This document shows, piece by piece, positions 2,092 to 30,937 of a DNA stretch of 64,000 bases. Made by a program: the position numbers and the translations under genes. Below the pieces are notes generated by a model. That model saw only the letters and a list, made by a program, of their open reading frames with translations. It was not told the origin of the DNA and did not search any database. Where the stretch lies: contig OX104117.1 in NCBI GenBank assembly GCA_944474755.1, forward strand, positions 69,865,522 through 69,929,521, read 5' to 3'. Origin of the DNA: Limnoperna fortunei. Taxonomy: Eukaryota; Mollusca; Bivalvia; Mytilida; Modiolidae. Position 1 is the first letter of the stretch. Each line of letters starts with the position of its first letter.

Positions 2092-3910
2092 GATTTCTGG
2101 AAATAATATCGGTCAAAAGTTTGGTAAAGGACGCTACGAAGATTTTTTGTAAAGTGGCTACAATGGCGCTCCACAATTGTTGTCATTTAAACGGTACTCA
2201 CTATGGTCAATGGCCACATAACAGAATCAACTGATAGTAAAGCATGAAGCTGGAATACTAAAGTATTAAGTTGGGGAAAAACATAAGTAGCTGTATAGAA
2301 AACTACTGCTTCTAATTAAATATATATTTAAAAAGATGGGTCTTAATATGGAATTGTGAAAGTATGTTTCTGTTATATTATACCTATATCTGTCTTGTTT
2401 CCAGAATTTAGACTTAATTTCTCCGACCCTGGTGGCTGCGTTACTACAAAACATATTTTTATTTTATCTTTTTTTTGTTTGTTCATCATTTGTTTTATAC
2501 TATGCATTCCATAAGTAAATAATTATACATACAGTTTTCAAAATATTTATTTACGAACGCTTTGTACAATATATTTCGTTGTCTTAATTGACAACAAATT
2601 AAGTTATTAGTTTTTATACTCGAAACGCCCATTATTGTGAACAATACTTAATTATTATTATGCACAATTACCAACGCCTTTTTCTTGGATCTTCATTCAG
2701 CGGATTTGTATTATCTAACAAAACGAAATTTATGGAAGGCGAGAGTTTTATGCCGTTCACACGATGCTAACGAGCGTTAGTGTCCTAAATACATTCACGT
2801 GATACAATAGACAGAACATCAGTCCGATATACAATGCTATAATAATGTTTTACTGTATTTTTTAAAACAATATTAAAAATGAAATTAAAGTACATAAAAA
2901 CGTAATTCTACCTTATCAGGGTTCCTGCTTAGGTATGTTAAAACGATTTAAACCTGATCAACACATAGGAATAAATTCAGCTTGCGTACTAGAACATGTT
3001 GAATGTTTAGAAACACTATATCTTGGAAAAAATAGATATGTATATTTTTCAATAGCCCAACCAGACAACTACCAATACTAAATATAGATGACAACATAGT
3101 CCGAGTGAGCGATTACATGCTCCTGGGAGCCTATGGTTTAATTTACGAATTATTTAATAGTTTCCCATTTAAATGTTCATCACAACTAATGATATTTTAA
3201 GTTCATAGCTTAATGGCATTGCCTCGTCCAAAAGCCTTCACAATGTTTTCTACTATACCTTCGTTTTTTTCCGACCGCGCTTAGGCATTTTATTTTATAT
3301 GCAAGAATTTACAACTACATCATAATACATTAGAAAATAATTTATAAGAATGCATTCGTATTGCTTAGCGATTATCAAATTCATCTTCAGTATTAGTGTG
3401 GCAAAATGACTATTACGGTGGCAAATACGCCAAAATCTGTCAAATAAGTAGTCTAAAATGATTTCTAAAATCTCAGCATGAAGTTTATTGATCATGTGTT
3501 AAAGCTTCGAATACTATAAACAATACAACATAGATCAGCATACAATGAACAAAAAAGTCAACATGATAAAAAAACTTAACTGATTTTAAATAGGAGTTTA
3601 TGACATGCAATACTATTTTGATAATAAAAATCCCCCCCCCCCCAATCTTCGTCTCTAAACAAAATCGAGAAAAATATTCTTCGAAACGCTTGTTTTAAAT
3701 TGAACTGGATGTGGTAAAAATGATTGATCATTAGAAGGAATAATGAGAATGTTTTTTTCCGATAGCCTCAAACCTACGCAGATATGTGTATTTCTAGTTG
3801 CCTCAGAATTAAATCGGAAAAATCTTCCTTGTCTGAGTAAGTTTTAAACTCTGCATTAGGAATTGCCCTTTTCTCTTTAGTATTATTGCTTTGTTGTTTT
3901 CTATACTTAC
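2092..3910. other. Intron of gene A, no gene seen
   Basis: AT-rich sequence with only short chance ORFs. There is a poly-C run near 3632-3642 and nothing else that I can support. Confidence 0.5.
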
Positions 3911-8886: not shown

Positions 8887-10982
8887 TCAGTGCTGCAGTG
8901 GGCTGGAGCAGGGCCCACTTGATAATCTGGCCCTAAATTCCTCCAGTGTTGATGCTGCAGTTACTGACTCTGGCAGGCTGTTCCACTCTCGAACTGATCG
9001 GGGAAAAAATGAGTTGTGGTACACTTCTTTGTTGGCCCTTGGCTGTCTGTACCTGTGCCCTCCCCTAGTCCTGCTATCCCCTGGGGTATAGTAGAGATCT
9101 GGGTTGATGTCCACCAGATTGTGTCTGATCTTATAACACATAATTACTGTTTGCTGGGCTCGTCTGCCCTGTAATGACTCCCACTTTAGTTGTTCTATGA
9201 GGGAGGTTACGCATCCTGGAGAAGTGTCAGTATATTGGTTAAAGACAAAGCGGGCTGCTCTTCGTTGTACTTGCTCAATATCTCGTATAAGTGTGGATTG
9301 GTAGGGGTTCCAGACTGTTGAGGCGTACTCGATCGATGGTCTGATCAGTGTACAGTATGCCGTTGCTTTGACTGATGGTTTGCAACGGCCAATATTTCTC
9401 CGAAGGAAGCCCAAAGTTCTTTGTGATTTCCTGATGGTGTTGGAAATATGCTTTGTCCATTGAAGGTCTTGACTGATGGTAATACCCAAATATTTTCCAC
9501 TGTCTATTACTTCTAGTTGGTGTCCATGGAGCATATATTTAGTTTCTATTGGCTGTCGTTTGTTGGTTACCCTGTGAACAGTGCACTTCTCCGGGTGGAA
9601 ACTCATCTGCCACTTTTATTCCCAGGCTTCGAGATCTAGAGCAGTCAGGTCTTCTTGTAGCTTGTCGGCATCAACTTTGCTCCTTATCTGTCTGTTCACT
9701 AAACAGTCATCGGCAAATAGTCTTGCATCTGATGTTGTGCAGTCTGGAAGGTCATTTATATAGACTAGGAACAGTAGGGGCCCAAGAACAGTTCCCTGTG
9801 GTACTCCAGATAATACATCTAGGGGGGTAGATGTCATCCCTTATAGTACTACTGTCTGGATTCTGTTGCTCAGGAAGTCCTTAATCCACTCTTATGGAGT
9901 AAGAGGTACTACATAAGAGTGACTTAATTTCATAATGAAGCTTTGGTGTGGCACCTTGTCGAAGGCTTTGAAGAAGACCAGCAGCACAATATATTTTTGT
10001 GTTCCTTTGTCCATGTTCCTTGCTATCTTGTCGATGGTCACCAAGAGTTGAGTCTCACAGGAACGTCTAGATCTGAATCCGTGTTGCTCGTCACATAAGA
10101 TGGTATGTTTATCAAAATGATCCATGATAGTACTGTGGATGACATGTTCCAGTAGTTTACACGCTATAGATGTTAGCGATACTGGACGGTAGTTTGCTAG
10201 CCTTTCTTGTAGATTGGAACAATATTTGCTGACCTCCATTCATTTGGTATTTTCCCCTGGTCCAGTGATTGTTGGTATATCCTAGTAAGGTATGGTGCAA
10301 TGGTTTCAGCTGCACTTTTGAGGATGAAGGCAGGTACCTCATCTGGTCCGATTGCTTTGTATGGTATTAATCCTTTGAGTAGCTTTAAGATACCCTTTTC
10401 GTGGACTGTAATATTTTCCATAGATGAGTGCGGATTGCTTCCTAGATCTGTTAGGATATTCAGGTCTTCTTTTGTGTATACTGACTGGAATTACTGGTTT
10501 AGTATTAAAGCCTTGGTTGCTGTGTCGCTATGTAGGAAACCATCTCTAGACTTGAGTGATACTATCTGAGAGGGATCTTGTTTTCTACTCTTAACATATG
10601 CCCAGAACTTTTTCGGGTTTTTCTGTAGGTGTTCACTGACAACTTCTTCCATAAACTTTGTGTGTGCCCGTCTAGATTCCCTTTGGAGTTCTGCTTTGAT
10701 GGCCTTATATCTTTTCATGTCTTTCTGTTTCCCACTTCTCCTTGCTTTGGTATATGCCTTTTGCTTCTTGTTGGTTAGTCTTCTTTGATCTGAGTTCATC
10801 CATGGGTGAGTATGCGTAGAGCGGGTATGTCTAGTTGGGACGATGTCGCTGATAGCCTTCATAATTACGTCTTTTGCTGCTTCCCATATCTTATCGATGT
10901 TTTCAAAGACTGTTGAGTTAAAAGCTGGAAGTGTTTCACTTAAAAAGGTGTTTATCCCTGTAATGTTTGCCTTCTTCCACAA
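8887..10982 (-). pseudogene. CR1-like LINE, reverse transcriptase region
   Basis: Pieces in at least four frames make up one RT. 10491-10982 is the connector (NPKKFWAYVKSRK), 10197-10421 holds PNEWRSANIVPIYKKG, 9892-10239 holds NYRPVSLTSIACK and FKAFDKVPHQ, 9616-9837 holds SGVPQGTVLGPLLFLVYIND and LFADD, and 8887-9606 holds the thumb and C-terminal part (GKYLGITIS, RPSIEYASTVWNP, REWNSLPESV). In motif A the usual catalytic Asp (LDFSKAFD) is replaced, reading LLVFFKAFD, so the enzyme would be dead even without frameshifts. The final 240 codons are intact. Confidence 0.88.
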
Positions 10983-11029
10983 ATAGATCTTTCTTTTTGT
11001 TGGTTTGGCTCTGGATATGTAGGTGGCTA

Positions 11030-11962
11030 GGTCGACGAGGACAATGTCATGGTCGCTATTTCCAAGTGGTGGTAGGGTTTACATCTGTTAAGTTGGCCTG
11101 GCTGTGAGGTAAATAGTATATCAAGTGTTTTGTCACCTCTCGTTGGTATATCTGCAACCTGTTGAATGTTGAGGGTTGCTGCCATATGTAGGTATAATTC
11201 ACTCAGTTGTCTCTGGTTTTGTGTCCCATTGATGGTTAAAGCCTTCCCAGTTGATGTCTGGCAGGTTGGAATCCCCACCTAGTAAGAATACATCATCTTT
11301 CTTATGCTGACAAATTTTAGTGATTTCACTGGTGGCTTTGTCAGAGTATTCTGGGTCTGTTTTATTTGGTGGGCGATATAAGCATGCTATGGTGGCTTTT
11401 TTCTTTGGAGTAATGGTGATGGTACCTGCGATGAGTTCTGTCTCTACTCCAGTATGTAGATGGTTCAACTTGAGTCTGACTTGGCCGCTATTAATACGCC
11501 TCCATGAGGATCCCCTTTACGGTCTCTTCTTATAACATCGTATCCAAGTTCTGGCGGAAAAATTTCACTTGTGTTAATCTTGTCACATAACCATGTTTCT
11601 GTTCCAAGAATAAGGTCTGGCTGAGATGACTTAATAAGGACCTGTAGATCATTTCTCTTTATACTTTGGAAATTTATTAAGAGAGTTCTCAGACGTTTTC
11701 TAGACTTCGGCTTTCTGTCTAGGTGTCTACTGTTGGATTTAGGGGAAGAACTGGCTATAGGGTTCACGAAGCTTGAATTTATAGATGACGATATACTGGT
11801 GTTTGGTTCTTCCTCACGTGTTGATGCTACTGAGGAAAGGATTGAGTAGGTGTTGCTCTCAGCAGAGTCAATTAAGTCATAAAGTATGGTTGAGTGATTG
11901 TGCGAGTTACACACTACACAGTACCATGATGCTGAAGTGTTTGCTAGGCTGTGTGTATTCAA
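11030..11962 (-). pseudogene. CR1-like LINE, APE-type endonuclease
   Basis: 11465-11962 has the N-terminal strands (RTLLINFQSIKRND, then the metal-binding Glu in GTETWL). 11199-11468 continues with ACLYRPPN and GGDSNLPDIN (the D-x-N motif). A further frame near 11030-11075 gives NSDHDIVLVD, the terminal SDH motif. All catalytic motifs of the exonuclease-endonuclease-phosphatase fold can thus be found, but in three frames. Confidence 0.85.
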
Positions 11963-12332
11963 CTGTATCTATTTCTGTGCAACCTGCGTGATACCAGTTG
12001 TTGCATTCATCACAGGCCAGGGCCTTTTGTCCCCATTTACAAGCCTTGCTACAGATGGCACATGGATATTTGGGTGTTCTTGGGCCTGGGTTTGTTTCGA
12101 TGCCACTGAGTATGAGAAGTAAAGAAATGTGTGATGAAGAGTCTCTTACACTGCTTGGGTGTTTTTCATTAGTGAACCATATTGAAGTTTTAAACCAAAA
12201 GTATAGACTAGTACTTGTTGTGATAGTGTCTCTACTTACGAGGGTGTCCATGGATGTGTATTTGGTTGTTTCTATTTTATTGTTACATGACAGTCTTACC
12301 AGCAAGATCCATATGTACCATAAATATTTCAT
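11907..12332 (-). pseudogene. CR1-like LINE, leader with 2A-like motif and PHD finger
   Basis: The 141-codon ORF contains ILSGIETNPGP, matching the 2A-like ribosome-skipping consensus (D/G-x-E-x-NPGP) known from several APE-type LINEs. A PHD finger follows: CAIC, then C, then CDEC, then WYHAGC. Its last part (WYCVVC) sits in the next frame after a frameshift near 11940. The 2A position, just before the zinc domain, would release the leader from the main polyprotein. Function is inferred from the motif. Confidence 0.82.
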
Positions 12333-12365
12333 TGTTTACATTTGGCGCTGAACCGGAAGTAGTGA

Positions 12366-23183: not shown

Positions 23184-23531
23184 CTGAAAATAAAAATACA
23201 TTCAGGTATGTATATAATACTTGCACTTAGTAAAGGTTGAACATATTTGGTATTTCATTAATTTATTATGTTCCGAATTTAAATTACACACTATTTAAAC
23301 AATAATGGTCTTCGATGTTTTAATATTACTACTGTATCGCTACTGTTCTACCACGGTATCAACCGGTCAATAGTCACCATTCCGCTTTTGGGAAGAAATG
23401 TATTGGTACTTTTGAAAATGTACTGCTTTAAATTGGCGAAATCGTTATTAAACTGAGGTTCTAATGCACAGGTATATTATCGGACTCGCCAAACTTTTGC
23501 TGCTTAAACAACTACTGTCAAATATAAATGT

Positions 23532-23843
23532 TGTGGTGTGCGGTGACACCACGGTAGTGATAATTCACGTACGTGTGCTGTACATATAGAGATGTACATT
23601 AGTTGGTATTCGGTTATACCGTAATGGAATGGATCTAGGAATAAGACACTGCCGTAGTTAGCTCTACATAGAAAGTAACCAGTAGGTGAATGATGATGCG
23701 CAGTTGTAGTCTTGCGGGAGTGTGAAGCAGACGAGAAAAGACGCACAGTTGAGCTGAGAGCTGACAACTATTAATTAAGTAGTATATGTGATTTAGAATT
23801 GTCCCCGTGTCGGCTGCCGATCTAATACTCGAGATTCACAATA
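23532..23843 (+). repeat. 5' LTR
   Basis: Begins TGTGGTGTGCGGTGAC and ends near ATTCACAATA, with the terminal CA apparently mutated to TA. It aligns along its whole length with 30623-30933. Confidence 0.95.
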
Positions 23844-23844
23844 C

Positions 23845-23862
23845 TGGCGCTGCGAGCATTAG
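23845..23862 (+). other. Primer-binding site candidate
   Basis: TGGCGCTGCGAGCATTAG starts one base after the LTR. TGG complements the tRNA CCA end. I cannot assign the tRNA. Confidence 0.6.
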
Positions 23863-24381
23863 TTTTTTTTCGGACCAAAACTATATTTTTCACTTTGAGG
23901 TGAGGCAGTCGACACGTGTTATGCAATTTGAACTGTGGTGGCAGTTCAAATTTTGATGCAAAGAGTATACAGAGTGTTTACTCATTGTTTTATGAGGTAA
24001 ATCACACTGGTTTTTATTACCGAATAGGGGTTTTCGGTGCAGCAAAATTTTTTTTTCGTTCGAGGTGGAACGAAAGGGCTACGTGACCCAGAGTGACGTC
24101 ACGGATATTTGTGTGGTTGTCCCAAATCAAGTACAAGTGACCGGACACTACACTAAACAGGAAACTATTATTGTACATTGTAATTTTTTATGCAGAGTAG
24201 CATTACATTTGATTATCTTTACATGGTTTAAAAGTTTTGTTTATTACCGAAGATATTCTGGCATAAGGACATGCCAGGTAGTAAATATTTTTTAACGTTT
24301 GGGTGACACAGACATTGTTTATTTGTAAATAAATGTATTTGCTTTTCTCGGATCTTGATTTTTTGTCATAGACAGAGTGAA

Positions 24382-24605
24382 CATAAATACCTGACCATCT
24401 ATTGGTACCTTCTGGAGTAGGAAAAGTGATAGCAGACAAAATAATTTCGCTGAGAGAACAGCATGGCAGTTTAAGTCCAGTACATTTAACTAAAATACCG
24501 AGATTGAGAATCACGGAAGAATTAATGAACATGATAAATTTCAAACCTATGAATAAAAGAATAAGAGTGTGCACGGGCATTGTCCGACGACACTGTATAC
24601 CATGA
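24382..24605 (+). pseudogene. LTR element, pre-gag helix-hairpin-helix segment
   Basis: The frame reads PSGVGKVIADKIISLRE, then HGSLSPVHLTKIPRL and MNMINF. GVGKxxAxxIIxxRExxGxL is the pattern of a helix-hairpin-helix DNA-binding unit of the ComEA/competence type. It lies upstream of the capsid-like part of gag and its start is unclear (no ATG at the segment start). A nucleic-acid-binding role is inferred. The open frame ends at 24605 and the next readable segment is shifted. Confidence 0.65.
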
Positions 24606-25097
24606 CGACATTGAGATCTGTAATAAAACAATTGTGCACGACCGATGGTCGCCGTACATTGTAAAGGACCAGTGCAGCGGCACTGCGACGGACAAAATAA
24701 AGCAGAAAGTTCCGTTTCGTACTCCGGTACTGCATAAACCAGACTTTGGGACCACCAGTACTTCAAGACCACTAGTACTGGTACAATTAACAGACGAAGA
24801 CTAGCCGATTCATTTCCCGATTCAGAGACACAACAAAATCGTGATTTATCACGTGAGTGTCAACCAGAGCAAAACAAAGTGAATTGGACAACTGAAACGC
24901 ACGAAAATAAGCGTGACACATTGTCCACGGCTAATTCTGACCATAACAGGTCACAACACAGACAACATAGACACAGGTCACCATCACCGTTGAGGAGACC
25001 CAGCAGTTCAAGCATGCCGATATCAAATCCAGATTGTGGTAATCCACGTTCATACATGAATTAACACAGAACGAGAGCTCTCGAGACACCACAAGAA

Positions 25098-26103
25098 TTG
25101 AGATATGACGGGACAACGAACTGGAAAACATTCTATACAAAGTTCCAACGGTATGCGGACAGGTCAGCATGGTTCAATATGGAGAGAAAGGACCAACTAG
25201 GCTGGTGTTTGAACGGCAAAGACGCAGATTACTACACCAGCATAGTAGACAGGGACCAGGACATAGAGTACTTTGAACTGGTCACTAAACTGGAAAAAAA
25301 GTTTAATTTCCAAGATTTACCGGAGACTTTACGAATACAGTTCATGAGTGCAGAATCAAAAAGTAAAATTAGAAGATTGGGCCGACAAAGTACTATCGCT
25401 CGCTTGTGAAGCGTACAGAAACTTGCCAGATGAGTATACGTACACACAGGCTATATGGAAAAATTGTCAAGGCTCTGTTGACAGAGAGGCTGGTCAACAT
25501 GCAGCTACAGTGAGATCGATTTCAGTGGAAGCGGCTATCGATCACATCAAGTGGTATCTGTATATTCATACTGCGATTTATGGTAAACAGGTTAACATAC
25601 GTGACTCAATGGACGAATTGAATGAGTACGACTTTGATCTCATGGCTCAAGCGATGTCAAAGTCAGACACGAAACAGACCGACGTGTCAAAACAAATTGA
25701 GACATTAATGAAAAAAATGACCGCCATGGAGGAATTCAATAGGAAGGAACTTACTAATATAAGCTACCAGTTGCAGCAAGAACAGTACCAAAAGACACAG
25801 ACTGAGCAGAGTAGACAAGAACCACGGAATGTCCAATATTCGTTCAGGTAAGGGACTGAACGTAATTATGAAAATCGTCCGCAGTGGCGTAGCAAAAATC
25901 GATGGAAAAATCAAGGCAAGAAATATAACCAATCGAACGGACCGCAATCGAACAGACCGCAATGGAATTACAAGCAGCAGGATAGAATACATATCCCTTC
26001 GGAAAAGCTAACTAGTATGGTTTGTTTCTATTGTGAGAAACGAGGACATCTTGTGCGGGATTGTCCCGAGCGCAAGAGACAGAAAAATAAAATTGCGACG
26101 GAG
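25098..26103 (+). pseudogene. LTR element, gag: capsid-like region and CCHC zinc knuckle
   Basis: 25098-25409 has YDGTTNWKTFYTKFQRYA and a WCLNGKDADYY motif, typical of retrotransposon gag capsid. It continues after a frameshift at 25348-25851 (DWADKVLSLACEAYRNLP, ending in a Gln/Glu-rich stretch). After another frame change, near 26018-26065, CFYCEKRGHLVRDC gives a CX2CX4HX4C zinc knuckle. Together these form one gag in three frames. The packaging role is general knowledge of the family. Confidence 0.85.
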
Positions 26104-26120
26104 AGCATTTTTACTCAATC

Positions 26121-27350
26121 TAGGCAAACTTATAGATAAATGCTTGGACACATTAGGTGGAAATAGCTGGTTTTCAAAGCTAGATGCAAACAGCGCCTAT
26201 TACCAAATTAAACTGAAGGAGTCAGACAAGGAGAAAACCGCTTTTATCACTAAGTAAGGACTTTTCCATTTTGTCCGTATGAGCTTTAGCCTATGTAAAA
26301 TGTATGCGAGGATGATGAACCTAGTTTCACGTGGATTTACATAGAATGTAGTTCTAGCATTCCTGGACGACATTTTAGTGTTAGGAAAAACATACGAGGA
26401 CCATTTACAGAATCTTCGATCTGTGTCAGAGCCAGCACGGTTTAAAGTTGAAACCGCGAAAATGCGACCTGTTTAAAAAAGAGATACACTTCTTAGGGAG
26501 AAAAGTGAATAAAGATGGTATGGCAATAGGAGACGAATATATTGATGTAGTTAAAAATTGGCCGGAACCCTCAACAACCACAGAGGTGGAACAGTTTTTA
26601 GGCTTCGCTAATTACCATAGGAACTTTATTAAGAACTTGCAGATATTTCTTACACGTTATATCAGTTAACCGGTAAAAAACTGTGTAAATGGGGACATAC
26701 TGAGCAAGATGCGTTTGATAAATTGAAACTATTACTGACGACGACGCCTTTATTAGCGGTACCGAATAGCAAGGATCCGTTTATATCGGATACGGATGCC
26801 TCGAACTTTGCTATTGGCGCAGAATTAATGGAGCTGAACGCACGGTGGCGTATGGTAGCTGTTCATTGAGTAATGAACAAAAAAAATATTGTACAACACG
26901 GAAGGAACTACTTGCGGTCGTGAAATTTACCAGACAATACAGACATTACTTACTTGGACAAGAATTTACAGTTAGAACCGACCACAGCAGCCTGGCCTGG
27001 CTACTCATCTTTAAGGAGCCACAAGAACTAATCGCTAGATGGTTAAAAGAGCTAAGCCAGTATCACATGACAGTACAACATCGACCGGGTAAGACACACC
27101 TCAATGCAGACGCATTGTCACGCATATCGGAAATGATGTGTACAGAAATGAGGACAGAAGCAGGTAACTTGCTAAAAAACAACCTCCCTTGTGGGGCATG
27201 TCATTATTGTACCCGTGCTCACCAAAATTGGCTTGGATTCCAGGAGCAAGTGGACAATGTTATGCCGTTAGCATCGTTACCGGAAGTTCAAAGCGAAAAT
27301 CAGGCAGAACCGGGCGAACCAGTACAACCACACGTTCAGGGCATACTGTA
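26121..27350 (+). pseudogene. LTR element, pol: reverse transcriptase and RNase H
   Basis: The RT begins abruptly with CLDTLGGNSWFSKLDANSAY, directly after the zinc-knuckle region, so the protease and RT N-terminus are deleted. FLDDILVLGK (the catalytic DD box) follows near 26360, then IHFLGRKVNKDG and VEQFLGFANYHRNF at 26448-26669. RNase H has DTDASNFAIGAEL near 26798-26840, then YCTTRKELLAVVKF, VRTDHSSLAWLL and HLNADALSRI to about 27130. The rest (CGACHYCTRAHQNW) is a Cys/His linker usual in this lineage. Several stops interrupt it. Confidence 0.9.
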
Positions 27351-27835
27351 GTACTACCGGACACCTTGATTACACAAGATACCTTAATTACACCAGATAA
27401 TTCATTACCACCGGACAATTAAGTATAGCCGGACTATTCACTATTACCCCGTAAAGACGGGCAGACACCAAACGTGACAAGTAACGGGACCTTAAATTTA
27501 ACCGAAATACAGGACATGACACAGACACCTCCAAAGACATTACCAGATTTATGTCACAGTTCAATTGAAGAAGTAAGCTCACCACTAGGTATGTCAGTAT
27601 ACGCGACATAATTGACCTCTTCAAATTAATATTCGATAACCGAGTGTGGACTCGAAGCGACTATTTACACACAGTAACAACTCAAAACTTTCCAGTCTCA
27701 AGATTCCAGACTTGGAGTTAAGTTTGTTATGGCTAAGGGATAAAGTGGAGCCATCGGAAGCTACAATTTTCAGATCAAACCCAAAAGCGAAAAAATATTG
27801 GATAAACAAAGAGATGTTTTTTTCTGGACGATAGT

Positions 27836-28195
27836 GGCGTCTTAAGAAACCTGGACAAAAAAGGAAGCAGTCCAAGATTAGTAGTACCAAAGGACCTTGT
27901 GGAACAGGTAATGACTTTAAACCACGATATTCCAGCGGCAGGACATGAAGGTATTCAGCGGACTACCTTGAGAATTAAAGCTAAATACCATTGGTATGGT
28001 ATTACTGGGCAAATCAGGAATTTTGTGCAAATTTGCAGTACAAGTGATGTTAATAAGAAGCCAAACAGGAGGACCAAATGTCCGTTAACCCAGTATTATG
28101 CAGGTGAGCCCATGGAACGAGTGCACCTGGGCTTTGTAGGGCCATTACCGGAAACGAAATATGGAACTGCCCACATACTGGTCATGGTAAGATGA
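27836..28195 (+). pseudogene. LTR element, integrase (zinc domain and start of core only)
   Basis: HDIPAAGHEGIQRT and YHWYGITGQIRNFVQIC are the HHCC domain, but the second Cys of the CxxC pair is lost (CSTS). The core begins GEPMERVHLGFVGPLPETK, where the usual catalytic Asp in this motif (HLDF) is Gly. The remaining core with its other Asp and Glu is not found downstream, so it is deleted. Confidence 0.88.
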
Positions 28196-28399
28196 AATGT
28201 CCGATGTGTTAGAGTTACATGATACTTGTAGTTACATTGATTGGTCAGATTAACAAGTCCCAATGGACTCAGATTAGACCACTGTGCAGGATGACACAGT
28301 TAATACTGAAAAACGTATGTGCGTTAAAGAAACAGTTAGTAAAGGGACACAGTGCTCAGTGTCCAGAAAACGAAACGCAGATAAGACCCCTTATGCGAG

Positions 28400-28696
28400 T
28401 ATGATCAGGAGTCAATTTGTCCGATTCCTACTTGTAAGATACCTACGAAGAAATTAAAGCATCATTGTTGGGAATTTCACTTACCATCTATTTTCAAAGA
28501 TAGGATAATAGAGGAGAATGAAAACGATCCAGATTTTCAGCGTCTACGTGCTTTAGCTTTAGAAACATTAGCACGATGGATAATTGTACCAACAGCAACT
28601 GTCCACGATTTGGCACAGTTCGTGAGAGAACATGAGGACATGTACCCAGATAATTGTATGATAATGGACAGATTTCAGATACAAATGACGAATTGA
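28400..28696 (+). pseudogene. LTR element, unassigned region with zinc-finger-like start
   Basis: One open frame reads CPIPTCKIPTKKLKHHCWEF with HLPSIF after it, a C-x4-C-x8-HH-x5-H arrangement that could bind zinc. It continues FQRLRALALETLARWIIVP, HDLAQFVREHEDMYP and MDRFQ up to a stop at about 28696. It lies where the integrase C-terminus ends and before the TatD-like region. I do not recognise it. It may belong to the same accessory ORF as the TatD part. Confidence 0.5.
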
Positions 28697-29169
28697 ACGA
28701 GAGTAATGGAGTGGGACACTCCAGTAGATGGACGATTTAGTATGTATCCAGTAAACTCACCGGCAGTTCTTATGCAATGGATAATTTTGATTACGTTGCT
28801 AGCAAGATTATCGCCAAGTAGTATAGGCGGGCACACTTCAGAAGAATAGGCAATGATTATGTAAGAGGACAATCAACAGTAAATCGGGTTTTACCCGTTA
28901 ACACATATACTAATATGAACAAGAGATCATATCAATGGAGTCGCCATCCCGTTACTGCAGGAATAAGTTAAAATACCACGGAAACTACCTCAGTACAACC
29001 AGAACGGACACCCGTCGGTGCCGCCGTCGCGGACGCGAGAGTAATTATTAACAGGAAAAAGAATAAACAAGAAAAACAACAGAAGTTACTAAGACAGATA
29101 CCAGGCCAGAGGAGCGCGACGAAAATAATAATGCAAAGACATTAGTTTAGCGAATATCGGTTATTCCTA

Positions 29170-29966
29170 AAGCATTTGAGAGTCATTGTCACTTGGATAG
29201 AGCCAGCATATTGCTTACCAGTTCCTTAGATTTAACCAAGGATAGTTGGTTGTGTAGACAAGTTGTACTTACACCTTCGATTCCAGTAGATATCGTAGAA
29301 GGAGTAATAAACTATTGTCACCCATTCACGTATCCGACGATATTGCCGGAATTACAATAGAAAGTTGCAATCGGTTTTCACCGGCGTGCATCGCGTATTT
29401 CACCCAAGAAAATTTTGAGCAGTTAGGGCAGACCTTGCAGGATGAAAGAGTGGCAGGCCTAGGCGAAATCGGTCTAGTCCGCACCTGTAAAAATACCAAT
29501 TGGATTGCACAGGAAAGAGTATTTGAGAGAATATTAACGTTGACGACGCCAAACAGACCCATAATTCTACATCTAAGGGGAGATAATAATGATGTAACAG
29601 GATATGCAGTATATGAAAGAGCTTTGGAAATATTATCGATGCATTGCGAACCAAAACAATGCATTCACTTCCATTGCTTCCACGGAACAGAGTTCGTAAG
29701 TGGATAAGTAAATTTGTTAACACTTATTTCAGTTTCACATTAAAGGTTAAAGAGTTTAACCACGAACAAATAGAAGCGGTAAAGCTGATACCGGACAATA
29801 GACTTTTGCTGGAGACGGACTCTCCATACACGACAACGTAGGAAGTTGCGAGGCAGATGAGCTTTACTTAGGAGAAGTGGCTTTGATGATAGCAAGGATA
29901 CGAGACCAACCAGTGGCAGAAATTTTGAACTTGACACTAAAAAATGGACAATATTTGTTTGAATGA
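29170..29966 (+). pseudogene. LTR element, TatD-type metal-dependent hydrolase domain
   Basis: The frame near 29170-29345 reads AFESHCHLDR (the HxH metal motif at the start of TatD enzymes) and GVINYCHPFTYP. 29315-29707 has VAGLGEIGL (metal-binding Glu), PIILHLRGD (metal His) and CIHFHCFHGTEF. 29644-29841 has IPDNRLLLETDSPY (metal Asp). A last frame to the TGA at 29964-29966 reads LYLGEVALMIARIRDQP and LKNGQYLFE, the usual TatD C-terminal helices. Motifs come in family order and span about 265 residues, a full TatD length. TatD proteins are TIM-barrel DNA/RNA nucleases. The copy is broken by stops and frame changes. It lies well inside the LTRs, so it is element cargo and not a neighbouring gene. 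Confidence 0.85.
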
Positions 29967-30609
29967 CCAGTTCGCAAAGGCAACCGAGGAGAACCTGTGT
30001 ATCAGGATAGATGTTGATTAATTGAGAACCTGTTGATCAGAATAGAGGTTGATTATTTCAGCATTGGCTGAATAATCGTTTGCATTCAACTTTTTATTCA
30101 CGCAGAGGCTTAATAAACTTTTGTATTTTATTTGGTCCAGTATAGGAGCTGGACAGGAGTTTTATATTTAATTCAGATAGTTGCTGAATTATTTTTGGTA
30201 GTTGACTTTAATTCAAGCAGAGGCTGATTGATTTCAAGATGTGATTATGTATTGTTAGACTTCAAATTCAGATAGAAGCTGAATTAACTTTTGTATTGGA
30301 CTCTCCTGCTGAGGAATTTATTGTTAGAAATGTCTATGATTAGGCCGTGTTCAGAGAAACTATGGAAATTGTATTTTAAGTCAACATGAGATTAAGTGTT
30401 TATTTGGTGATTCAACAATTTGTCTTGGTAATGGCGCATTGTACTGAAGGTAGAAGTTTCTCCGTCACTCAGAGAACCGGAGAACTGTGTATAGATGAAC
30501 TTTACGTTGGTGACAACGCTATTGGTATTACAACCCCGTGGTAGGACCAAACGGGGGGGGGGGGGGGTGGGGTATATGAAATTAAGGAAGTAGGGAACCC
30601 GCTTTTTTC
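29967..30609 (+). other. LTR element, 3' non-coding region with diverged short repeats
   Basis: Motifs like TTCAGATAGAAGCTGAATTA, TTCACGCAGAGGCTTAAT and TTCAAGCAGAGGCTGATT recur about five times between 30010 and 30320. A poly-G run lies near 30553-30567. Confidence 0.6.
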
Positions 30610-30622
30610 AAAGTGGGGGGAG
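30610..30622 (+). other. Polypurine tract
   Basis: AAAGTGGGGGGAG lies directly before the 3' LTR, the usual plus-strand primer site. Confidence 0.75.
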
Positions 30623-30933
30623 TGTGGTGTGCGGTGACACCACGGTAGTGTTTATTCACGGTAGTGTGCTGTACATATAAAGATGTACATTAGTTGGTAT
30701 TCGGTTATACCATAATTGAATGGATCCCGGAATAAGACACTGCCGTAGTTAGCTCTACATAGGAAGTAACCAGTGGGTGAATGATGATGCGCAGTTGTAG
30801 TCTGGCGGGAGTGGGAAGCAGACTAGAGAAGGCGCACAGTTGAACTGAGAGCTGTCAACTTATAATTAGTGAGTATATGCGATTTACAATTGCCCCGTGT
30901 CGGCTGCCGATCTAATACTCGGTAATCACAACA
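30623..30933 (+). repeat. 3' LTR
   Basis: Begins TGTGGTGTGCGGTGAC and ends AATCACAACA, followed by ATGT, which also precedes the 5' LTR. Confidence 0.95.
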
Positions 30934-30937
30934 ATGT

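Follow-up and report, generated by a model that had tools for sequence, protein, structure and literature searches.

The window analyzed here, a stretch of 64,000 nucleotides from the bivalve Limnoperna fortunei (GenBank assembly GCA_944474755.1, contig OX104117.1, positions 69,865,522 to 69,929,521), contains at positions 23532 to 30933 a decayed retrotransposon of the Ty3/gypsy type with long terminal repeats (LTRs), in which a third open reading frame (ORF3), located between integrase and the 3′ LTR, ends in a TatD-type nuclease domain. To our knowledge, LTR retrotransposons do not have such a nuclease in their standard gag-pol set. The domain occupies positions 29160 to 29966 on the forward strand, the strand of the LTRs and coding remnants described below, and is collinear with the database proteins P0003 (from Mytilus coruscus) and P0001. 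It was recognized by Pfam model PF01026 (TatD_DNase) with E values of 1.6e-12 at 29258 to 29707 and 3.3e-7 at 29617 to 29841, both exceeding the Pfam cut-off of 27 bits. These searches (hmmscan) were run on separate frame pieces rather than on a frame-corrected whole, and the first and last pieces (29151 to 29360 and 29802 to 29966) gave no Pfam match alone; the first was placed by its alignment to P0003 and the last (29850 to 29966) was matched by eye. The original prediction, which covered positions 29170 to 29966, had found the TatD landmarks in order over three reading frames. This largely holds, but the domain runs through four frame segments (frames 3, 2, 1, and 3), with three frameshifts and one in-frame stop.

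ORF3 starts approximately 970 nucleotides (nt) upstream of that interval. An N-terminal part, left after a deletion (DVLELHD...YIDWSD, 28203 to 28331), was detected by tblastn of P0003, P0005, and P0006. It is followed by a zinc-finger region (CPIPTCKIPTKKLKHHCWEFH) that, together with the next region and one in-frame stop, extends from 28403 to 28819 and is 53 to 57% identical to four Mytilus coruscus proteins; there is no Pfam match in this part, and the zinc-finger label is based on the spacing of cysteines and histidines. A basic linker in a shifted frame (28825 to 29145, tblastn of P0003 and P0007) leads to the nuclease. The unit is, as predicted from its translation, a zinc finger-linker-TatD protein, of which the interval originally noted covers the final part.

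The 5′ LTR (23532 to 23844, starting with TGTGG) forms a direct repeat with the 3′ LTR (30623 to 30933), the pair differing at 24 of 309 ungapped columns (91% identity, Kimura two-parameter [K2P] distance of 0.082). Both are bordered by ATGT, a putative target-site duplication (23528 to 23531 and 30934 to 30937). Directly after the 5′ LTR lies a likely primer-binding site (PBS; TGGCGCTGCGAGCA, 23845 to 23858), common to the window copy and to the element at another locus, L013, while a polypurine tract (PPT; AAAGTGGGGGGAG, 30610 to 30622) precedes the 3′ LTR. Remnants of gag in several frames (24387 to 26139) have a CCHC knuckle at the end (zf-CCHC, E value of 7.9e-6), and matched Retrotrans_gag with an E value of 0.029, below its Pfam cut-off. 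The pol remnants comprise reverse transcriptase (RT) without its first part plus RNase H (26126 to 27330; RT_RNaseH, E value of 5.4e-23), and the integrase zinc domain with the start of integrase, its core being lost (27700 to 28195; Integrase_H2C2, E value of 5e-13). Two RT pieces matched RVT_1 below the cut-off (E values of 8.7e-7 and 0.0069), and tblastn with related pols supports the pol remnant. The assignment to Ty3/gypsy is made by domain order, with RT compared only among the window copy and its relatives. Neither protease, the first RT part, nor the integrase core was found in the window copy with Pfam and with tblastn of related pols; this copy has also lost the segment running from the integrase core up to where ORF3 begins. 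The distance from integrase to TatD is 1575 nt here versus 2634 to 3513 in 20 other copies of the same family, which points to a deletion of about 1.3 kb. The LTRs, PBS, PPT, and gag and pol pieces, along with the Pfam matches, bear out the predicted location of a TatD-type domain in a Ty3/gypsy-like retrotransposon.

Copies of this family were then located in the genome from which the window comes (G000, an assembly of 1.335 Gb with 285 contigs). The middle TatD piece was found at 29 places, with at least 77% identity over at least 60 residues (a match of 32 residues at C3:46345593 was excluded), and in 21 of them an integrase of the same family lies upstream on the same strand, 2.6 to 3.5 kb away in 20 and 1.6 kb in the window. 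The window LTR scored at 40 of 86 candidate places, 35 of which (window included) adjoin a TatD place of the family. LTRs were found on both sides of 12 TatD places, on one side of another 12, and on neither side of 5. One of the two-sided places, on contig C5, borrows the LTR of a neighbor, leaving 11 clear pairs, ten spanning 8.6 to 10.0 kb and one 7.5 kb. At irregular spacing, C5:15.57-15.81 Mb holds four TatD pieces of the family with equal scores, and C15:10.97-11.42 Mb holds seven integrase pieces, again with equal scores; these clusters are probably duplicated blocks with element fragments.

Across the genome, the TatD profile gave at least 151 matches, exons and fragments being counted apart. 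The 30 best loci were extracted and ten of these viewed with longer flanks. Open frames of 482 to 708 amino acids (aa) run through the TatD match in 20 of the 30, and 28 have a Ty3/gypsy pol or the LTR of an element close by. In 25 loci, the extracted stretch itself contained, upstream of TatD, the C-terminal part of such a pol; the pol queries came from six of the loci, and L004, L007, L013, and L016 therefore match themselves. At L029 and L026, pol appeared in the longer stretches (3.9 kb before ORF3 in L026), and L018 has an LTR of the L007 type downstream. The exceptions were L002, with a divergent TatD and no pol in its 1.5-kb flanks, and L025, whose open zinc finger-TatD frame is described below. 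Among the ten loci with longer flanks, seven had LTR pairs. Those of L007 (172 bp, duplication ATAC), L016 (243 bp, GTGT), L020 (243 bp, GTTG), and L013 (233 bp, TTAA) are 100% identical, which indicates recent movement; the others are those of L019 (231 bp, 99.1%, with a GTAT duplication on the assumption that its LTR ends like that of L013), L029 (98.8 to 99.5%), and L006 (94%). In the stretches examined, L004 showed only an 86-bp repeat, and L025 and L026 had no LTR pair. Relatives that have open TatD ORFs between two LTRs, sought in one of the checks suggested with the original prediction, are thus present in the same genome.

Single elements hold gag, pol (protease, RT, RNase H, and integrase), and then the TatD ORF, as identified with Pfam. 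The pol ORFs of L013 and L016 have the order protease-RT-RNase H-integrase, with integrase last; the window copy is partial. A PHD finger was found at the pol C terminus in L013 and L026 and had no match in the pol frames of L016, L029, and L007. The gag of L013 matches Retrotrans_gag and zf-CCHC, and that of L007 matches zf-CCHC just under the cut-off. In L007, L013, L016, and L029, the TatD domain of ORF3 extends from profile position 1 or 2 to 252 or 253 of 253, with E values of 4.7e-36 to 2.7e-41. HxHxD occurs in 27 of the 30 best loci; in L002, L014, and L018, the match begins downstream of this motif. GE, HxF, and TDxP-like motifs occur in all 30. The third histidine was searched with a pattern that proved too narrow: it missed L002, L011, L026, and L028 and hit a different position in L029. 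We take the HxH, GE, H, and D motifs to be the metal ligands.

Relatives were also sought in protein databases. The middle TatD piece retrieved P0001 alone (76% identical, aligning across two window frames), and an alignment-based search again gave only P0001. A query in which one frame was continued past its stops (written as X) gave five proteins, P0003 to P0006 from Mytilus coruscus and P0007 from M. trossulus, all of them database gene models known as proteins only. P0003 is an open protein of 672 aa, named “tatD” in the database, with a TatD match of 1e-29 and collinear with the window over 28203 to 29835. The TatD domain is partial in P0004 and P0007 and was not found in P0005 and P0006; the N terminus of P0005 is a partial PHD finger. 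The best PDB match of P0003 was YcfH (1yix, E value of 3.4e-9), and its best NCBIfam model was the YchF/TatD DNA exonuclease subfamily, below the cut-off of that model. PHROGs gave a single weak match for P0001 (E value of 0.47), and Rfam nothing at its thresholds. Scans of viral contigs with P0001 and with two alignments yielded no confirmed relative, the RNase H piece gave no pattern match there, and the N-terminal piece of ORF3 matched one record; L001, a phage, was discarded as a chance match on a short motif. P0003 to P0006, which carry the names “tatD” and “CXXC1,” resemble retroelement ORF3 products.

The ratio of nonsynonymous (dN) to synonymous (dS) substitutions, computed on the TatD coding sequence, indicates purifying selection (dN/dS of about 0.1 to 0.2) in the three groups with the most synonymous changes. 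These are the window family (mean dS of 0.0848 and dN of 0.0090 over 36 pairs from nine of the 29 places, two with a stop), the L016 group (0.0484 and 0.0047), and the L013 group (0.1168 and 0.0205). L026 and L028 gave a dS of 0.0235 and a dN of 0.0016 from only 5 changes. The window TatD piece compared with ten copies gave a dS of 0.27 to 0.46 and a dN of 0.08 to 0.09, and in the ten cross-family pairs tried dS was saturated, with a dN of 0.33 to 0.72. The suggestion that TatD had been under selection in active ancestors is thereby supported for several groups. When unconstrained evolution was simulated down to 47% protein identity (substitutions only), the TatD frame remained stop-free in 0.25% of 400 lineages. 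Taking half of the LTR distance, 0.041 substitutions per site, as the divergence since insertion, simulation predicts a mean of 1.3 stops in a frame of such length (indels not simulated); the single stop observed is consistent with a window copy whose ORF was still open on insertion.

From this evidence we consider it highly probable that ORF3 belongs to a set of elements with the organization LTR-gag-pol-ORF3-LTR and the domain order of Ty3/gypsy, in which pol bears a C-terminal PHD finger in some cases and the ORF3 product combines zinc-finger-like motifs with a linker and TatD. They would form several diverged families, some with copies whose LTRs are identical, with purifying selection in the groups with the most synonymous changes, and the window holds a decayed copy.

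To evaluate the history of the domain, identities were compared among six elements. For pol they fall into two sets, with 59 to 65% and 54 to 58% identity within and 43 to 51% between. TatD identities are 46 to 60% among L013, L026, and L029, 29 to 34% among L007, L016, and L004, and 26 to 34% between these sets, and TatD and pol identities correlate at 0.74 (15 pairs). The TatD tree, in which long branches are flagged, joins L007, L016, and L004 (89/80, not starred) to L003 and L030 and leaves L013, L026, and L029 without resolution. The pol tree groups both L007, L016, and L004 (88/90) and L013, L026, and L029 (91/83). The comparison of element-borne with host TATDN proteins that had been suggested gave an outline only, from a small sample of host genes. 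A split TatD gene, presumably of the host, has one exon (L055) that is 31 to 48% identical to element TatDs over 60 to 71 aa and another (L056) that fits L002 best; L002 itself is approximately 27% identical to element TatDs in the best matches.

ORF3 follows pol in a frame that is not constant relative to it, and its start often lies directly after a pyrimidine tract plus AG, resembling a splice acceptor. By a rule devised after 17 loci had been viewed, such a site was present in 6 of 8 families versus 58 of 612 control ATGs (4 of 8 versus 27 of 612 with a stricter rule), leaving out L015, L025, and L030, where the first ATG lies inside the ORF. In the window family, TTTTTCAG is found some 29 nt before the ORF3 start, outside the rule, after a PHD-like stretch and the pol stop (L067, by eye). 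The acceptor-like sites suggest that splicing may generate the mRNA for ORF3, as it does for env in errantiviruses. The zinc-finger motif and the basic linker suggest nucleic-acid binding, so that the protein might bind the nucleic acid of the element. TatD would then be a 3′ exonuclease, or a nuclease, on the ends of DNA, RNA, or RNA:DNA hybrids during reverse transcription or integration. The fullest version of this reading is that a group of recently active Ty3/gypsy elements, in this genome and in Mytilus, requires a zinc finger-TatD protein, expressed from an env-like spliced mRNA, that trims or clears DNA and RNA ends or hybrids in reverse transcription or integration; we hold it to be plausible, with somewhat less than even confidence.

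Several observations weigh against the explanation as a whole, the organization of the elements included. The acceptor rule came after the loci had been seen, and L003 and L004 do not conform to it. At L025, an open zinc finger-TatD ORF has no pol or LTR in the longer stretches examined. AlphaFold models of two pieces (mean predicted local distance difference test [pLDDT] scores of 40.0 and 34.6) were left unused, offering no usable fold. dN/dS is not clearly below 1 in the L007 group (dS of 0.0125 and dN of 0.0062), the L005/L014/L015/L017 group (0.0243 and 0.0177), or L004/L012 (0.0226 and 0.0145). These last values, and the broken state of the window copy, could fit a captured host TatD gene copied along with no use to the element. 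Such a passenger seems very improbable given the purifying selection on TatD in three groups (those of the window, L016, and L013), the rarity of stop-free frames in unconstrained simulated lineages, and the ligand motifs kept between families only about 30% identical. Still less can be said for a host TATDN gene or pseudogene inserted once into this copy, or for two unrelated repeats nested in each other. The one copy before the original prediction would allow either, but many copies, spread over different chromosomes, have LTR, integrase, and TatD in the same order and at comparable distances, and there are relatives in Mytilus. The outcome that would have spoken against the prediction, a domain confined to this locus, was not seen, and with 21 of 29 TatD places paired with integrase and 35 of 40 LTR places adjoining TatD, an origin by host insertion is effectively ruled out. 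Two further observations also count against the reading above, and they bear on the number of captures. The TatDs of L007, L016, and L004 are no closer to each other than to the other set, unlike their pols. Among the matches listed on C1 and C3, none of 11 integrase pieces 56 to 61% identical to that of the window is near a TatD (by eye), although integrases of other TatD-bearing families are only 49 to 54% identical to it; this implies that TatD was lost or was gained more than once. Independent uptake of TatD genes by separate Ty3/gypsy lineages would account for both, and the zinc-finger motifs also vary by family (one or two, with different spacing). We nevertheless think it rather unlikely, since L007, L016, and L004 cluster in the TatD and pol trees and L013, L026, and L029 cluster in the pol tree, although not in the TatD tree. 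As far as can be judged from the sequences, the data lean weakly toward a single old capture inherited with pol, with losses or several captures likely as well.

As to what the protein does, we favor, tentatively, binding of element nucleic acid by the zinc finger and action of TatD on ends in reverse transcription or integration. Action on such intermediates is judged the likeliest function and counter-defense comes second. In the latter, ORF3 would degrade host small RNAs, sensor-activating cDNA, or R-loops and so escape silencing or sensing, and would be dispensable for copying. TatD nucleases occur in bacterial defense, and the second-best NCBIfam model of P0003 was QatD (8e-13), yet its 48 bits fall far short of the 230 set as the cut-off; in general, accessory ORFs that follow pol often have such a role. 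The co-residence with pol in several families would suit a core part equally well, and counter-defense seems to us on the unlikely side. That better-kept relatives, in this genome and in mussels, carry the enzyme as a third gene suggests that TatD serves a function throughout a group of retrotransposons that were active recently.

Some other features of these elements and of the window may be mentioned. A helix-hairpin-helix motif (HHH_3) was noted in gag (L046:1521-3398, L044:6959-9175, and window 24387 to 24605). It stands at the start of gag in the L016 element (E value of 1.3e-11) and is weak in the window gag (0.0023) and in L029 (0.02), both below the cut-off; this motif is, as far as we know, unusual in gag. 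The 3′ untranslated region of the window copy has at 29995 to 30290 approximately six to eight short imperfect repeats in a row; a number of them could fold into small hairpins with stems that differ yet pair and a loop like ATAGNNG (all by eye). The 3′ untranslated stretch folds just slightly better than shuffles (z score of −1.42). A 54-aa frame at 30380 to 30544 has a signal-peptide-like start (by eye) and no PHROGs match. The 532-aa ORF of L025 (L040 and L041), with a zinc finger of the window type, lies between two direct copies of a long interspersed nuclear element (LINE) (5.5 kb, 91%). Elsewhere in the window, on the minus strand at 8900 to 12335, there is a non-LTR retrotransposon with RT and a PHD finger (E value of 1.2e-6), the first frame of which has GIETNPGP directly before the PHD finger, presumably resembling a 2A self-separating peptide.

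No description of TatD in a retroelement was found in the literature searched, which comprised open-license papers only and makes this a weak absence. Papers that mention both TatD and LTR retrotransposons concerned a TATDN2 retrocopy and a fish gene neighborhood, both unrelated. The study of the giant squid genome places a TATDN2 gene beside a pogo-transposon-like gene, among the non-Hox genes of the Hox cluster (PMC6962438), and one on oyster lists a Tatdn2 gene (PMC10778899). Mollusc genes annotated as “tatD,” “TATDN2,” or “CXXC1” may in fact be retroelement ORFs and would then skew counts of gene-family expansion; if the elements do require TatD, many annotated mollusc “TATDN2/tatD” genes would be retrotransposon genes. 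A functional TatD would point to a stage of reverse transcription, of integration, or of evading the host for which the known enzymes do not account, and the many open, recently moved copies make the nuclease amenable to study.

Among known systems, QatD of the Qat anti-phage system shares the TatD nuclease in a conflict setting, although P0003 scores far under its curated cut-off. PHD-finger LINEs likewise combine a PHD finger with an animal retroelement, but LINEs are non-LTR. With the TatD/TATDN nucleases (PF01026; YcfH and TatD, and animal TATDN1 to TATDN3), the elements share the full-length domain and the HxH, GE, H, and D motifs, whereas the element version is mobile and multicopy, stands behind a zinc-finger-like motif and a linker, and is 26 to 34% identical between family sets. 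The closest organization is that of Ty3/gypsy elements (Metaviridae) with a third ORF, such as errantiviruses, which have LTRs, PBS, PPT, gag, and the order protease-RT-RNase H-integrase in common with the elements described here. In errantiviruses, too, the third ORF lies between integrase and the 3′ LTR, and here an acceptor-like site precedes it in many families, a likeness to env that we draw from general knowledge. Their third ORF is an envelope protein, whereas in these elements it is a zinc finger-TatD protein, accompanied in some families by a PHD finger at the C terminus of pol.
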